Source of the DNA: Corallium rubrum
Lineage: Eukaryota; Cnidaria; Anthozoa; Scleralcyonacea; Coralliidae
NCBI GenBank assembly: GCA_964035015.1
Contig: CAXIUP010000120.1
Coordinates: forward strand, 1,506,001-1,570,000
Reading direction: 5' to 3'
DNA length: 64,000 bases
The notes under the pieces are model-generated. The model was not told where the DNA came from. It saw only the letters and a list, made by a program, of their open reading frames with translations, and made no database searches. How positions within the stretch are numbered: position 1 is the stretch's first letter; every line of letters starts with the position of its first letter. The position numbers and the translations under genes were made by a program. Positions 13,481 to 64,000 of this stretch are shown here, piece after piece.

Positions 13481-14168
13481 TCACCAGTGCCCAACAATTC
13501 TTAACACATGACACCCTACGACGCATATATATAAACTATTTCCAGATTTTCGTCTCCCTTGCTTTTTCTACACGCGTGTAAAATGGAATCCACGCATGTC
13601 GAGATTAGCACCCTCACCGGGCTCCGGGCCTTCGGCCCTACGCTCGAGCTCGGGGAGAAGCTACGAAACAACATAGCAAGAGGAAAGAGTGAAAAGAAAT
13701 TATAAGCTAAATATATTGTTCAAGTGTTGGACTTGAATATTGAGTTCAGGATTTATTTTCTTATTGTACAAAGCTTCAGGTCAAAAAATATATATGAAGT
13801 TTAATATAACTTTAGTGCCCGTTAGAATATATCGAAATTAACGGCAGTGCACCAGCTTCCAGCGTTTCCCAAACCAATTATAAAGAATTCGTGAAACCTT
13901 TACAAGACAATACTTGCCTATACAGGGTGTATCAAAAAAAAGGCTACCCTTAGAAAATATAATTAACATTCTTTTCAAATAACCTATTGTAGATTGACAG
14001 CCCTGTGGTCAGTTGAACCATTTTTAATCGAACTGATATGAATATAATTAACATTTCTATTTCAGTTATGCTCTTTCATACGTTTAGAAGTTATCGTAAT
14101 TTCCAAGGTGTATACGACCATTTGTTTTTTACGCATCCGTGACTTCAGAGGTGTCCAGGGCTGTCAAT

Positions 14169-14330
14169 ATACATATATGTTATTTACTGGGTGGGAGGGC
14201 CGTACTGGAAAAATATTTTCCCAAGGTCTCAAAAACTGCCCGAGGCCGCAGGCCGAGGGTCGTTTTTGAGACCGTGGAAAATTTTTTTCCAGTACGGCCC
14301 GACCTAAACGGTAAATAACGTATTTATTTT
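14169..14330. repeat. Terminal hairpin of the Crypton-type element
   Basis: Arms of about 70 bp: gttattta, gggccgtactggaaaaat and aggtctcaaaaa on the left are mirrored by tttttgagacc, ttccagtacggccc and taaataac on the right. The loop is a small GC-rich palindrome, gaggccgcaggccgag. The same structure with a diverged sequence is at 43195-43345. Confidence 0.8.
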
Positions 14331-16312
14331 TTTCGACATGATTGGAACTATTTAATGAGATAATTATGAGATGAATGGCTAACAAATTCGTGACGAAAAA
14401 ATTAATATCTGCCATAAATAAAAAAACAGTTGAAAATTCATTTATTCATTTTAACAAATTTATAGTACATTTTGAATATTTATCATAATTAGAATTAAAA
14501 TTTGCATGTATAATAAATTAGCAACCAGCTCACGTGATTTAAAAAGTTCAACTGTCAATAAAACGTTTCAAAAACGGATCTGCCATGAGCACGCGAAAAC
14601 ACGAGTGCATTGGCGATAAAAAATAGTTCAAAAGAGGAGTAAAAGATTGTTCAAATGTTTTAATCGGAATCAGAGTCATCGCTTATCATGATTCTTCGCC
14701 TTTTGCTTGTTGTTGGCTGGCTGTTGCTACAATCTTTGTCGCTTTTTACATATTGGATGTTGAAAGTACAACCTTCGAACTTGCCGATGGAAGCGCCAGA
14801 AAACAGCCCAGTATCCTGTGAATGCACAGGTGCAGTGGCATTAAACTTCGTAGCATGATAGCTGATGGTAGAACTCGACGATTGTGATTCTATGTGATTT
14901 CTCACGGGAACGTCGTCGTTGTTTTGTTGATACGATGTAGATGACCTGCTCAACACATTTGACATTTTTCGCTGATGGACGCGAGAAGCCGTTTTATACG
15001 AATCGAGACTCTTCAGATTCCTATGACCGCTTAACTGGGCTACAAAGTTGGCTGGTATATCTGCATCCATCAACCGGGAAATGCAGGTTTTTCTCACGCT
15101 GTGGTTAGTGATGTTGCCTTCGATGTGTGCATTTTTTGCTGCTTTCGAGAGGAATTTGCTAATCTCGTTTTTTCCCAACGGAGCTCTCCGATACCATACG
15201 GGATTTTCAGGTCTTCTCTGGTGGTTAATTGCGAGAAAAAACGGGGCTTCTGGAACTATCATTTCATCGGGTCGATGTTTCGTGAATTCTTTGTAGACTC
15301 GGACGGGACAACGCTCGCCATTTGATGCCTCTGCAACCGGGCTAAATGCTCGTTGTTGACCATTTCCGTCGCGTGTTTTTGATCTTCGTTCCGACTGCCA
15401 AACTAAAAACTCGCCGCCGTTTGCTTCGTCTCCACACAATTTGACATCACCCCACTTCAGACGTCTACTTTCATCCCTGGCACGAAAACCAAAATGGAGG
15501 GAAAGAAGCCACCATACGGTACGCTGAAGAGCTTCGGGATTGCCGTAACCAAACTCGCCAATACGAAAAAGTTCATCTTCTTCGTCTGCTGTTAACTCGC
15601 GAGCAGCTTGTGATCGATTTCCCTTGGCGTTTTCCCGCACGACTTCTTTTCGCTTGGCGGACAAAACTTCTCTGGCTTTGTTGAATGCTTGGCCTTTGTA
15701 AATGTTTATCATGGAATTTTGGTCGTTCAGATAGCGCTGAAGACTTCTCACGAAACAGGTCAAAGTGTTTGGTTCATACGCTGTGCCATCTTTCTTTTTT
15801 GCTTGCATCAAAAATCGACAAACGTATACGTTCAACTCTTCAGGAGGTATGTTTTCAATATTTCGTTGTTCGTTCTCAGATTCAAAGTATCTTCCCCAGC
15901 CATTCATGTCATATCTTGTTTTTTTCACTGTGTTTTCAGGGCGCTTTGATAAAATAAAATCTTGAATATCGCTCGCAATTTCGTCGTTGTTGACATTTTC
16001 AATGTTTTTGTAACTCGTTGAAGCTGAAATTGGCTCGTTTTCCAGAGAGTTTAAATCGTCTGGGTAGTAAAATTCGCTCTCACTATGATAGATATCATCG
16101 GAGAACATTTTTTTTCACTAGTTTGAACAATTTACATTCTCATTAAATCAATTTTCAAAATTAAAGGCCACTTTGTAAAAACTTTGTAAACAAAAAAATA
16201 ACTCTCCTGCCCGCGGCTAAATATCGTAAAAAGCCGCCCGCTCGCGTGGCCAATCAAATTGCAGGAAATCACAAAATAACACTTCCGGACCGGAAATAAA
16301 AAAATAAAATAG
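14179..16312 (-). mobile_element. Crypton-type tyrosine-recombinase element (family F2)
   Basis: The element runs from a hairpin end (14169-14330) through the recombinase gene to an end with cgtaaaaagccgcccgctcg and ccaatcaaattgcaggaaat. Both ends recur in the deletion derivative at 42205-43342, which is how I set the limits. GTTATTT is present at both candidate borders (14179 and 16313) and could be the short recombination site Cryptons use; this is inference. The right border coincides with the inner edge of the outer TIR. Confidence 0.7.
14660..16108 (-). CDS. Crypton-type tyrosine recombinase (DUF3504-like)
   Basis: The protein has 482 residues with no internal stop. The N-terminal 50 residues are acidic; residues about 50-160 look like the SAM-like DNA-binding domain; residues about 170-385 are the catalytic domain. 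Visible active-site residues are R209 (in HFGFRARDE), a lysine in the beta-hairpin near 244, H336 and R339 (NHSVRKT), H362 (LSGHRN) and nucleophile Y371 (DSYK). The C-terminus has a basic KRRR cluster followed by an acidic tail. Family: the recombinase domain of Cryptons and of domesticated vertebrate ZMYM/QRICH1/KIAA1958 proteins. It would cut and rejoin DNA through a 3'-phosphotyrosine. The start is the first ATG after an in-frame stop, and a derivative at 42430 keeps the same MF start and EFYYP motif. It looks intact and possibly active. Confidence 0.88.
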   Translation of the reverse strand: MFSDDIYHSESEFYYPDDLNSLENEPISASTSYKNIENVNNDEIASDIQDFILSKRPENTVKKTRYDMNGWGRYFESENEQRNIENIPPEELNVYVCRFLMQAKKKDGTAYEPNTLTCFVRSLQRYLNDQNSMINIYKGQAFNKAREVLSAKRKEVVRENAKGNRSQAARELTADEEDELFRIGEFGYGNPEALQRTVWWLLSLHFGFRARDESRRLKWGDVKLCGDEANGGEFLVWQSERRSKTRDGNGQQRAFSPVAEASNGERCPVRVYKEFTKHRPDEMIVPEAPFFLAINHQRRPENPVWYRRAPLGKNEISKFLSKAAKNAHIEGNITNHSVRKTCISRLMDADIPANFVAQLSGHRNLKSLDSYKTASRVHQRKMSNVLSRSSTSYQQNNDDVPVRNHIESQSSSSTISYHATKFNATAPVHSQDTGLFSGASIGKFEGCTFNIQYVKSDKDCSNSQPTTSKRRRIMISDDSDSD

Positions 16313-16387
16313 GTTATTTGAAAAGAATGTTAATTATATTTTCTAAGGGTAGCCTTTTTTTTGATACACCCTGTAGTTCATACTTAC

Positions 16388-17099: not shown

Positions 17100-17340
17100 T
17101 TACTAAGGCGTAATACCACATGTGGTTGGTTTTTTAAATACCATACATCCGGGTGTTTGCAGTAAATACTTGTTTCCATCTGATTTGATACGGCAACGTT
17201 TGATACGACATAAAATGACGTCATGTCAGTTTGGCACATGGAAACAATTGCTGACAGTAAACAAGTTAGTTCCACACGAGTCCTGGTTTATTTGCCTTTG
17301 CCGAGCGTTCAAGAAGTTAGTCACGAAGAAAGTTAAGTAA
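17100..17340 (+). repeat. Dispersed repeat family C, copy 1
   Basis: Shares aatacttgtttccat, tgatacgaca, gacgtcatgtcagtttggca, atggaaacaattgctga and agcgttcaagaagttagtca with 53975-54325. The ORFs over it are incidental. Confidence 0.75.
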
Positions 17341-17371: not shown

Positions 17372-18080
17372 TAGATTATTATACACTATTGATACAATGT
17401 TAATTTTGATTGGCTAAAAGCGTATTGCTAATTCCAAATGTTACTGTATTTATTCATTCCTACTGCTCGTCTTGCTAGCGCGAAAACATGGCGGTAGCAG
17501 AACCACGAAACTTTAGAAGTGAATTTTATCGCCACTTTGGAAATATTTATCACACTTTTACTTTGACTTTAATATTGAAACGTTTCTGACAATGTAAAAC
17601 TTTAATTTTCTGCTGTTTTAACTTTCGTTTTGTTATTTACGAACAAATTAGCTCTTTGTTGCTAGGAAATACACACCTTTGTATTATAAAACTCGGTTAT
17701 CGCATATCTAGAATTGCCCGTACCGAAAAAGATGGCGGCGGTACATTTAACTACAATGGTTTGCGACCTCAAATCAGCTCAAGTAATAACTAAACGTTGT
17801 TTACCATGTCAACATGGATTAAGTAAGCAAGAACTTCATTCCTACCAAAGTCCATCTTTTTAAAGACCTATCTTTCGATAATTCTACAAGAAACAATATT
17901 TACTATGGGCAAAGGATTGTGGTTAATGTACAAGTCGCCATCTTTTTCGGTACGGTCAATTAGCAACACTTCAGTTTAATTATCCGCCTCAGCCTTAACT
18001 CAAACCTCGACCTTGATAATTCTATGGATAATTCTTGATATCATGCATGCTCAACCTCGTCCAATAATCAATTATAAAAG
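17372..18080. mobile_element. Possible hairpin-type element, family F8, copy 1
   Basis: One end has ttattatacactattgatacaatg and gattggctaaaa; the other has aaacctcgaccttgataatt, aacctcgtccaataatcaatta. The two ends are partly inverted. A second, shorter copy is at 37932-38110. No protein is visible; a related inverted pair containing agatggcggcggtac/gtacggtcaat lies inside. Confidence 0.5.
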
Positions 18081-27170: not shown

Positions 27171-28440
27171 CTAGCAATCAATCGCAAATGCAGCGAAACG
27201 CCCACAAATCCCATTAAAGAGGCTTGGGGTAAAACCCAGGAGAGTGACGTAACGGGAAAAGCAATGTCGTTGTAGACCCTCGAAGGCCAATGCAATATCG
27301 GTCGACTGAAACACACTGGAGCAACGCCCACCATTAATGTCGGGGCGAAGATCGGGAACGATCATCGTAAAGCGGACATGCCTTTGCTGATCCATGAAGA
27401 AGCGCAACAAGGGGCCGACCAATACAAAAGGCGGGAAAACGTAGATATTTTCCGCAGCGGGTACAGGCTGGGGAAACACATTCACACCCGAGGTACGAGG
27501 GGACGGCCACGGAGAGAAATGAGGCAGAGGAATTCCCTTATGGTCTCTACGGCAATTGCTGTCCAAGGCCATAAGGGCAAAGGTGTGTGGACCGAACAAT
27601 CGCTCGACTAGCACCCAGGCGGACGCGGACAAAGTGCAATCTAAGTCGGAACACTCACGCGAAGGGTAGTCAGCGGGGTTGCCCCGAGAAGGAACGTAAG
27701 CCATCCGAATTGAAAAGTTAAAGGCTCTCGAGCAACGAAGAACATCTTTAAAAATGCTGTTGATTTGGGAATTCTTACACCCTTCATTCGCCCATGAAGC
27801 TAGGAGGACTTTGCTGTCCGTGAAAACGTCGACTCGCGAATTTTTGATACTCTCTTTGAAGGAATCTAAGACCCGCCACAGCGCTTGAGCCTCAAGAACG
27901 TTGACGTGAGCAGACGAGGGGACGAAAAATAGTGGTAGAAACGAATTGGTGAAATTCAACGCACGATGGAGAGTTTTCGAGACACAGCGGAGGTGGAAGC
28001 GCAGAATCGTATTCCGTTCCCTTGAAACCTCCTTTGAATGGCCTGAAGAAATGCTCAACTCTGACACCCTCGCGTATTATCTGATGGAAATCCACTAGGC
28101 CGTGGGTATTACCACAAGCATCGATCATACGATCCCAAACGTCGGCGTGGGCATGTAAGCTGCCAGCGGTAAAATAATTGGGGTCTCGAAAGCGGAGCGT
28201 TTTAAAATCAGCCAATGAAGGGTTTTGCGCGACCATCTCCGGTGGGACTAAGGGGCCAACGAAAGGCTGGGGCCCCCCAAAGATATTGCACCACTTAGTT
28301 CCAGGGTCTCTCTTGGTGTGCGCAAGGTAGGAGAAGAAATCCCGAGATGCACCCTGGTGAAAAGAAAAAACAAAACGCATTAAAGAAAGCGCATGGGTAT
28401 GAGGGCCCCCAGCCTCCCGTTGACCCCAGGCTCCAATCAT
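27171..28440 (-). pseudogene. DIRS-like retroelement fragment, RT core deleted
   Basis: The upstream frame (28440-27892) carries IIREGVRVEHFFRPFKG and YDSALPPPLCLENSPSCVEF, the region preceding the RT core in cnidarian DIRS/Ngaro-type polyproteins. The second frame (to 27171) carries an RNase H-like block: HVNVLEAQALWRVL, RVDVFTDSKVLLASW, YVPSRGNPADYPSR, then FALMALDSN and YVFPPFVLVGPLLRF. The RT palm motifs expected between are missing, and the frame changes near 27925, so an internal deletion removed them. A second frame change near 27334 precedes WALLQ and the LLFP..GFYPKPL end. No tyrosine recombinase ORF follows. Confidence 0.78.
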
Positions 28441-28578
28441 TAGACCAGAATTGAGGCACTGAGAAGGCCCCCTGGAGTCAACAAGGAGCGCGCGTAAGAC
28501 AGGAAACGTTCACTCATAAACAAGAGACAAGGTGAAACAGTGCACACAACTTTATTACGGCACTCGGGTGCTCACAAA

Positions 28579-29106
28579 TTAGTACTCAAAAATCGGAGTT
28601 AGGGCCGCGAAGAGGCCCGCCACGTCCACGGCGCCAATTTCGTGCATAGTGGCCAATTTGATAGCCCGACAACATCGAGCAGACGCTTCGCCAAACGGGC
28701 CATTTCGAGGAGGATGAGGACGTGAGCGGCCCGCGTTTGCTGATGGAACCGGCGCCTTGCTGAGATTCTTAAGAATTGTGGCCTTGTCTCGTGTAACCTT
28801 AGCGCTGACTGGGTCGCCCAATAAGCCTAATAATAGACGATGGAGAGAAGCAGGAGGGAGAGAAGAACTACGAGGTTTAACTTCATCCAACACGGCAGCA
28901 AACTCGTTCGCTTTCTCGTTGGCCAATTGTCGAGCGATTCTCACTAAGGCTTCCAGGAGTTCGATGGCTTCGAAGGGATCGAAGAGTGAGCTTGGCCTGT
29001 TAATGTAGCGGCGTGCGGATGCTAGGACAGAAGCGACGGTCTCGTCTATCTGACGGGCTTCAAGTACTCTCATCTTGCCCTCCAATTGTGCAATCCTATC
29101 TTGCGG
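28579..29106 (-). CDS. Possible Gag-like ORF of the DIRS-like element, main exon
   Basis: A 175-codon frame, from acceptor ttcag before CCGCAAGAT to a stop at 28579, encodes PQDRIAQLEGKMRVLEARQI, a probable coiled coil, then a helical region and an NAGRSRPHPPRNGPFGEA stretch. It has no zinc knuckle. It lies just upstream of the RT/RNase H fragment on the same strand, the usual gag position. An AATAAA (minus strand) follows near 28553. I do not recognise the protein; the Gag call is from position only. Confidence 0.45.
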   Translation of the reverse strand, partial: PQDRIAQLEGKMRVLEARQIDETVASVLASARRYINRPSSLFDPFEAIELLEALVRIARQLANEKANEFAAVLDEVKPRSSSLPPASLHRLLLGLLGDPVSAKVTRDKATILKNLSKAPVPSANAGRSRPHPPRNGPFGEASARCCRAIKLATMHEIGAVDVAGLFAALTPIFEY

Positions 29107-29439
29107 CTGAATAAAGCCGAAGGAAAACGAATTAATTAGGCCGACTTAAACAACGCGTGAATTAGGGTGTGGTAGTAGAAACAAAGGGCTTTATAATTAC
29201 CCTTTAAACAACAAAATCCCCAAAGCTAACCCACTTGGGAAATGTACTGTTAGCAAACACCCATAGGAAACGAAGAAACAAGGTTCAGACGATAGGTGAA
29301 TACACCCGGACCATGCAGTGTGACTGTCAATTATGCAAACCGATTCGGTATTAGTTAAATCGGTAGTACAATCAGAAAACGACGATAAACTGTCTGTTTT
29401 AAAACGACTGGCAGAAAGCCTAGCCGAAACCACGAGAAA

Positions 29440-62701: not shown

Positions 62702-63398
62702 CCTAGCATTGAAACGGTGGCCATACTGGCGTACCAAAACAATGAAATGGTGGCCATACTACTGTAGCAAAACAATGAAATGGTGGCCATACTGGTGTAC
62801 CAAAACAATGAAATGGTGGCCGTACTGGCATACCAAAACAATGAAATGGTGGCCATACTGGTGTACCAAAACAATGAAATGGTGGCCATACTGGTGTGCC
62901 AAAACATTGAAATGGTGGCCATACTGGTGTACCAAAACAATGAAATGGTGGCCATACTGGTGTACCAAAACTATGAAATTGTGGCCATACTGGTGTACCA
63001 AAACATTGAAATGGTGGCCATACTGGTGTACCAAAAGAATGAAATGGTGGCCATAGTGGTGTACTAAAACATTGAAATGGTGGCCATACTGGTGTAGCAA
63101 AATATTGAGATGGTGGCCACACTGGTGTGCCAAAACATTGAAATGGTAGCCATACGGATGCAGCAAAACAATGAAATGGTGGCCATACTAGTGTAGCAAA
63201 ACATTGAAATGGTGACCATACTAGTGTAGCAAAACATTGAAATGGTGGCCATACTGGTGTGCCATAACAATGCAATGGTGGCCATACTCGTGTACCAAAA
63301 CATTGAAATGGTGGCCATACTGGTGTACCAAAACATTGAAATGGTGGCCATACTGGTGTACCAAAACATTGAAATGGTGGCCGTAATGGTGTACCCAA
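62702..63398. repeat. 33-bp minisatellite, ~21 copies
   Basis: The unit is aaatggtggccatactggtg then taccaaaacaatg, with substitutions and few indels. Because 33 is a multiple of three, long frames without stops occur on both strands (up to 262 codons). I regard them as by-products: no start context, no homology, and repeat variation shows no bias toward silent changes by eye. Confidence 0.93.
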
Positions 63399-64000
63399 AC
63401 AATAATATACACTTGATGAAAGTAATGTATAAAGTGTTTTATTACAATAATAAACAATACAAGCAAAAATAAAGGAAACCACATACAGCATTCACAGACA
63501 AGTCAGTTCAGTTAAATGTCAACCTCGATGAAGATGTAAAACACAGCATGTTTACCTTTCACTTCCAAGTTGGCTTTATCGACTTTCTTTGTTCTTTGAT
63601 TTACAGCACTTGAGCAACATTTTCAGGACAATTTAATTAATATTAACACATGTAAGATCATGTAAGTTGATCGAGAACACATTGGTCGAGAATTTTCGTA
63701 TAAAGTTTGATCGAGTACTGCACATTTTCAGCGTACGGTTATCGAGATCACCAACCAACCCAGGTCTACTATAGTCTATTGTAAGCATTGTGAGCGTGTT
63801 TATCATTAAAACACAAATTCACTTCGAACAACACAACCAAAGGCCGTCGGGAGAGAAAAAATGCATCACTCCTGCACGCTCCTGCATGAAAATCATCGGC
63901 CATTAAAAATACACCGGCGTGGTTTCGCAAAGCCTATCGGGATGATGCAATAATTGCAATTTGTCGACACAAAAAAAAAAAAATAACAGAGCCGAAACCT
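63399..64000. other. Unassigned intron sequence to the window end
   Basis: Contains tgatcgagaacacattggtcgagaa-type short repeats at 63660-63715. The last 17 bases (acagagccgaaacct) match 26455-26472, so another copy of that unassigned element begins here. No MED12 exon found. Confidence 0.4.

Follow-up and report, generated by a model that had tools for sequence, protein, structure and literature searches.

In the sections of Kojima and Jurka (2011, PMC3212892) consulted here, no terminal repeats were found in animal Cryptons, direct repeats of 4-6 bp are given for fungal and oomycete Cryptons, and a circular intermediate is inferred by analogy. Typical tyrosine recombinase sites are described in the same sections as inverted arms of 11-13 bp around a segment of 6-8 bp. 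To that extent the mechanism of animal Cryptons is left open by this source, which offers a circle by analogy and no terminal structure.

Folded or single-stranded recombination sites have been described for other tyrosine recombinase systems. The attC strand that is read by the integron integrase has extrahelical bases, an unpaired spacer and a variable terminal structure, according to the portion of PMC2727003 used here. For DIRS1, the corresponding portion of PMC3266345 describes internal complementary regions that are complementary to both ends and meet in a circular junction, and no target duplication. Strand-biased circularizing elements (SEs) of Vibrio have a tyrosine recombinase and provide evidence of one-strand recombination, and the passages of PMC9345347 on which we draw report no inverted structure of the attC kind in the att sites of SEs. 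For Cryptons, no foldback or folded att site was reported in the titles and abstract openings that we surveyed, a scope that lay outside Repbase reports and most subscription papers.

We analyzed a stretch of 64,000 nucleotides from Corallium rubrum (contig CAXIUP010000120.1, positions 1,506,001 to 1,570,000), referred to below as the window, whose own numbering is used throughout. It contains a Crypton-type element with defined ends, seamless insertion sites, a target preference, a terminal foldback, an inverted copy of the joined ends that is found in six families, and tandem copies elsewhere in the genome. Our preferred reading, to which we give not quite an even chance, is that this is a recently mobile Crypton of the animal type whose recombinase uses a folded single-strand att site in the manner of integrons. 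The features of the locus are as follows.

13921-14172, plus strand: left part (252 nt) of a 320-bp MITE with terminal inverted repeats (TIRs), the insertion target; 18 whole units read elsewhere in the genome
14173-16307, minus strand: Crypton-type element, 2135 bp, no target duplication; placed from 25 left and 28 right flanks and from empty sites of four target sequences
14173-14179, plus strand: terminal spacer ATATATG (7 nt), retained by the element on insertion
14175-14323, no strand assigned: terminal foldback, 149 nt, its foot being the element's left end
14180-14187, plus strand: L box of the recombination site, TTATTTAC, common to the copies, with an inverted copy at 14311-14318
14309-14333, minus strand: inverted inner copy of the joined ends (L' 14309-14318, 5-nt spacer 14319-14323, R' 14324-14333)
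14660-16108, minus strand: tyrosine recombinase gene, 482 codons from ATG plus stop, from the open reading frame list, Pfam and alignment
16230-16262, minus strand: probable recombinase gene promoter with GATTGG (CCAAT-box-like) and GGGCGG (GC-box-like), its function inferred
16298-16307, plus strand: R box at the right end, AAAAAAATAA
16308-16375, plus strand: right part (68 nt) of the same 320-bp MITE, equal to its positions 253-320 with no gap or duplication

The original prediction had described an intact, Crypton-type recombinase gene of 482 codons with all catalytic residues and a basic C-terminal cluster, and each of these points was borne out. The minus-strand frame has no internal stop, the cluster is present as KRRR, and R209, H336, R339, H362 and Y371 were all found at these positions in the window protein. 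The same five residues, and also K244, are invariant across ten aligned proteins (the window protein and nine from related elements, all of one genome); the catalytic residues are kept. Pfam returned DUF3504 (6.8e-22), Phage_integrase (3.8e-11) and QRICH1 (4.7e-11), and a profile of the ten proteins matched the solved QRICH1 in the PDB at 1.5e-12. None of the four Pfam families with an E of 1 or better was GCR1_C, the C-terminal DNA-binding domain. Within the element there is no other stop-to-stop frame of at least 150 aa, leaving the recombinase as the sole encoded enzyme, and Pfam found no reverse transcriptase or RNase H domain in this single frame. An R-H-R-Y recombinase as the only enzyme, kinship to DUF3504 and QRICH1 and the lack of GCR1_C point to the CryptonA type.

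The recombinase is not an integron integrase, as its sequence match to IntI4 was not significant (E = 0.14) and its targets are scattered over the genome. Scans of IMG/VR (with the protein and with the ten-protein alignment) and of GTDB matched peptide patterns (4, 12 and 24 stretches) and confirmed no relative. An AlphaFold2 model built from the ten sequences was poor, with a mean pLDDT of 46.9.

The whole insert is surrounded by an inverted repeat of 71 bp, 99% complementary (13921-13991 and 16305-16375). The left flank was searched against the same genome (474 Mb, 312 contigs; 40 of 873 candidates scored), and at least 39 loci besides the window matched its first 265 bases at 98%. Nineteen of the MITE loci were read, and 18 of them hold the full 320-bp unit without the gene, 16 being identical to the majority sequence and two having one difference. 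As the 320-bp MITE is present without the insert, the 71-bp TIRs are those of the MITE, and the uninterrupted MITE serves as the empty site. The same observation rules out a recombinase captured by a TIR transposon. The order in the window is MITE bases 1-252, the insert and MITE bases 253-320, and the left flank follows the MITE majority, with four differences, up to 14172-14173. Bases 16305-16307 are the element's, though they lie inside the listed inverted repeat, and MITE sequence starts again at 16308. Another copy of the element, L054, occupies the matching site in the other arm of such a MITE.

The element therefore reads ATATATG-TTATTTAC at its left end and AAAAAAATAA at its right end, and its joined ends give AAATAA-ATATATG-TTATTT. 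Its first base is the A at 14173, as set by the empty sites; a 1-bp target duplication (A) at the MITE was ruled out, since three other empty sites have T at that place. The span first proposed, 14179-16312, had thus captured the element with coordinates that are corrected here to 14173-16307, and nesting inside a MITE had been missed. The large hairpin said to bound one side does so: its foot is the element's left end, and its fold has z = -12.2, with 0 of 200 shuffles folding as well. The GATTGG/GCGGGC-rich end proposed for the other side is a real block but not a terminal structure, as in the minus-strand reading it lies about 45-77 bp inside the right end and 120-155 bp upstream of the ATG. 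We take its GATTGG and GGGCGG to be the minus-strand counterparts of a CCAAT box and a GC box; judged by these motifs, the block looks like a promoter of the recombinase gene and not like recombination sequence. It is present in a deletion derivative of the element (L068) too.

The MITE itself (loci L002-L020) has long TIRs starting TACAGGGTGTAT, with TA at both sides in the 18 copies read. It has undergone a very recent burst, with 16 of 18 units identical to the majority. A paper on coral MITEs (PMC2872659) was considered as a possible match and rejected, as the TIRs in the portion consulted differ.

A search with the right end scored 40 places of 141 candidates. Of these matches, 34 (counting the window) span 193-204 bases at 95-100%; a single short one has 71 bases, and the remaining five are weaker, at 76-86%. 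Twenty other loci, chosen by their right-end match, were read whole. By BLAST start, 19 of the 20 share the same left base, hairpin end included (L065 is without the left part), and the right end, by which the loci were picked, is common to all 20. Fifteen are full-length, one of which (L069) has a gap inside the foldback, giving 16 full-length copies with the window. The reading frame is kept in 10 of the 16, once with four additional codons, and is broken in six by a stop, frameshift or insertion.

Most copies are about 99% identical. Indels not counted, 14 of the 15 other full-length copies have 0-15 mutual differences in about 2135 bases, and 15 full-length copies including the window, with L069 left out, have 0-18; two copies on different contigs (L054 and L061) show no mismatch. 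The window copy is a slightly drifted member of the family: it departs from the majority at 10 bases, including four amino-acid changes, and the coding changes comprise 4 nonsynonymous and 1 synonymous, a count too small to show the selection that had been suggested. The original prediction had held that the copy may be recent, had proposed an alignment of full-length copies and had named unshared ends as the result that would speak against it. The alignment gave many near-identical copies with the same two ends, in agreement with a recent origin.

Four of the loci are deletion derivatives of 497-498 bp that join 166-167 nt of the left end (the foldback) to 333-334 nt of the right, and seven further derivatives of 480-498 bp are present among the shorter right-end matches. 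When the genome was searched with the protein, 91 matches were obtained, with 88 of 900 candidates scored; among the matches listed, many have open frames, and identity extends down to 40%. Five further families (40-57% protein identity to the window) were examined, with two copies of each read.

Insertion was assessed from the joined flanks of ten sites (39 of 5008 candidates scored), and empty copies were found for three of them. At the junction, three empty copies of the L056 site are identical to its joined flanks. The same match was seen at L063, where three empty copies were aligned and a fourth was read by eye, and the single empty copy of L064 is exact at the junction and has three mismatches away from it. 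With the MITE, this amounts to four target sequences and five insertions, with neither duplication nor loss. The L056 copy has inserted into tandemly repeated DNA whose unit is about 935 bp long; the empty copies lie at C1:10907697-10921832.

The left flanks of the window's family terminate in AATAYA (16, 22, 23, 23, 23 and 25 of 25 at the successive positions), its right flanks have TATT at +8 to +11 (27, 21, 22 and 19 of 28), and the target motif is AATAY^N6-TTATT. Tandem rows were left out of these counts; some rows share a repeated target and not all are independent, with L053 and L060 (same repeat) and two MITE insertions counted separately. In a test of the motif from which L052 and L060 were dropped as duplicates, ATAY at the left and TAT at +8 occurred together at 13 of 22 sites of the window's family, which is the motif's own source. 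The background per position in the window is 0.0148 for the left half, 0.0267 for the right half and 0.00121 for both. At eight sites from four other families, the left half was present at two, the right half at five and both at none.

A head-to-tail tandem on contig C37 has an R/ATATATG/L junction and 0 mismatches between its two copies. Elsewhere, a family-4 element abuts an older element of another family, having inserted precisely at the latter's left end so that no base separates the two (L079, C20:2363258-2367953). Such a tandem within one family and a head-to-tail pair of two families are what insertion of a circle would be expected to produce. In the whole genome, the tandem is the one place where ATATATG follows the exact right end; with the tandem excluded, 0 of 28 right flanks begin with ATATATG. 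As the left-flank pattern required a TATATG-like start, the unbiased evidence for the left end is the BLAST start at 19 of 20 loci together with the right flanks. Only one class of crossover was observed, in which the element keeps (A)TATATG at the left and the target keeps its own bases at the right.

These junctions bear on a competing explanation, that a circle integrates by ordinary double-stranded exchange, with the inner site and foldback providing accessory binding sites or arising as a side effect of inversion that keeps the arms alike. We consider this unlikely, while taking it as a serious candidate. The joined ends have the general form of a tyrosine recombinase site, with shorter perfect arms, and an inversion between attL and the inner site would presumably leave the structure unchanged. 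A two-strand exchange across a non-identical overlap of 6-8 nt would, however, be expected to leave two product classes, and the one-sided crossover argues against it, although one-sided mismatch repair could explain this pattern.

The foldback is not confined to the window's family. All six families (the window's and five others) have a palindrome, roughly 143-193 nt long, positioned at the left end or no more than a few bases from it. In each of them the joined ends recur in inverted form at the palindrome's inner foot, there with a spacer of 5 nt. The spacer of the ends themselves measures 7 nt, a length set by empty sites in the window's family only; in families 2-5 it was placed by likeness, and in family 6, where it reads TTAGATC and not ATATATG, it was placed from two copies that share the flank AAATAT. 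A spacer of 5 inside against 7 at the ends would hinder the exchange of two duplexes. When the families were scanned blind, the opposite-strand sequence most like the joined ends fell 133-157 nt from the left end, with a spacer of 5, in all six families. It scored 19 of 24 in the window and 24, 23, 24, 22 and 23 in the others, against maxima of 16-19 in 12 shuffled-arm controls each; the window's inner copy is the weakest of the six and equals the best of its 12 controls (19).

The R box is family-specific and is repeated inside the element (GCCATATAATAA in family 4, GGGAAAAATAA in family 2 and TTGTATAATAA in family 6). Its exact match to the inner copy is longest within its own family in four of five families, the window's being tied. 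For the L box this holds in three of five: that of the window's family ties with the inner copies of three others, and that of family 5 fits the inner copy of family 3 better (12 vs 10). The 7-nt spacer is certain for one family, the window's, and the family 5 L box fits another family's inner copy better; on both counts the reading in which a folded strand is used becomes less firm and ordinary duplex integration firmer. One sixth-family Crypton (L089, C1:64672827-64675558) seemingly lies inside the foldback of another Crypton element.

The foldback lies about 340 bp downstream of the recombinase stop codon, and long hairpins often feed small-RNA pathways. It might accordingly serve transcription or silencing, as the 3' end of a minus-strand transcript or as a hairpin RNA, with its terminal position incidental. 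This seems very improbable to us: in all six families the recombination boxes fall at the foot, the R box of the other end recurs within the inner foot, and the foldback is retained by the non-coding derivatives.

Pairing within the stem was compared among ten sequences (eight distinct rows, five families). Both sides had changed in 29 of 52 stem pairs (18.5 in shuffles), and 94.6% of stem cells were paired, compared with 78.7% when shuffled and 33-42% with slid partners. No excess of further pair types was found in the stem (36 vs 34.6 shuffled; 187 of 500 shuffles as high). A tandem G.A mismatch was kept in all ten rows. Inversion by the recombinase, or gene conversion, can also keep the arms of a palindrome alike and would then look like covariation. 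The window foldback is less well paired than those of five other full-length copies folded alongside it, and Rfam returned nothing in the window at gathering scores. For the strand that spans the circle junction, the predicted fold in five of five families is a single long stem, interrupted at the spacer by 2-3 unpaired bases and running in the order R-R', unpaired bases (two single ones in family 2), L-L' and a long terminal stem; in the sixth family the spacer bases are predicted to form a side hairpin.

Under our preferred reading, the tyrosine recombinase would join the two ends in a circle, bringing together R box AAATAA, the 7-nt spacer ATATATG and L box TTATTT, and the circle would then insert at a similar host sequence (AATAY^N6-TTATT for the window's family). 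Crossover would occur at one point only, so that the target is neither duplicated nor lost. Because the inner foot is an inverted R-spacer-L, a single strand across the circle junction can fold into a duplex recombination site, which would hold 2-3 unpaired bases. The recombinase most likely acts on this folded strand and a double-stranded target, as the integron integrase does with attC, and host replication would complete the exchange. We infer the circular intermediate, the folding of a single strand in vivo and the exchange of one strand.

The sole recombinase gene, kinship to DUF3504, deletion derivatives and circle model are shared with CryptonA as described in the consulted sections of PMC3212892. 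The terminal foldback, the inverted inner copy of the junction, the defined target and the lack of a direct repeat set the element apart from that description. We read it as a variant of Crypton, since the absence of terminal repeats in those sections of PMC3212892 describes the set studied there and is not a definition of the group.

The target of integron recombination is attI or attC, whereas here the targets are scattered genomic AATAY-N6-TTATT sites. Integron cassettes insert seamlessly at one point and form arrays, as the present element appears to do; unlike it they are bacterial, their recombinase is encoded outside the cassette and their boxes are unrelated. In its predicted folds the element resembles attC, as portrayed in the portion of PMC2727003 used here: the folded strand would have R and L boxes, unpaired bases and a terminal stem that varies, a form that suits five of five families and the sixth less well. 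Vibrio SEs carry 6 bp of the old flank into the circle and on to the new site, as stated in the passages of PMC9345347 drawn upon, whereas no flank base was carried along at the empty sites that we read.

A tyrosine recombinase, an inner region complementary to both ends and the lack of target duplication are also found in DIRS1-like retrotransposons (PMC3266345, same portion). Unlike them, the coral element has no reverse transcriptase and no inverted terminal repeats, and it is about a third to half of the 4.0-6.3 kb given there. The DIRS model is the nearest eukaryotic anatomy and, by analogy, may share the same logic. One could picture the inner copy as a splint that keeps the two ends of a linear single-stranded intermediate together while the circle closes, a device inherited from tyrosine recombinase retrotransposons or common to both kinds of element. 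The complementarity of the inner copy to both ends, as in the DIRS1 internal complementary regions, fits such a role. We nevertheless judge it improbable, given a single open reading frame without reverse transcriptase, no inverted repeat of at least 14 bp listed between the two ends, and no known source of a linear single strand.

Taken further, the folded-strand reading would describe a family of eukaryotic DNA transposons that move as a folded single strand, with a hairpin att site and strand-selecting unpaired bases, as a counterpart of integron cassettes with its own recombinase and possibly as the ancestral condition that connects Cryptons with the internal complementary regions of DIRS. 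We regard this wider proposal as possible and put it at somewhat less than an even chance. If single-strand recombination does take place, integron-like recombination extends to eukaryotic mobile DNA, and the element forms a structural bridge to DIRS retrotransposons. With the ends, target, joined junction and conserved foldback defined, and with open frames and near-identical copies at hand, excision and insertion are directly testable. The combination of a foldback and an inverted junction copy also supplies a simple rule for seeking Crypton ends in other genomes.

Other features were noted in the window. A GC-richer stretch at 27171-29145 (minus strand) has three open frames of 188-301 aa, the first of which resembles by eye an RNase H or DIRS-like region, with nothing in Pfam at E 0.01. 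At 62703-63491, also on the minus strand, a 262-codon frame contains a repeated unit like CFGTPVWPPFQ and likewise gave no Pfam match at E 0.01. Five other frames of the window were submitted to Pfam in all, and nothing was returned at that threshold. To the right of the element, further inverted-repeat pairs are present at 17154-17263 and 17712-17961.
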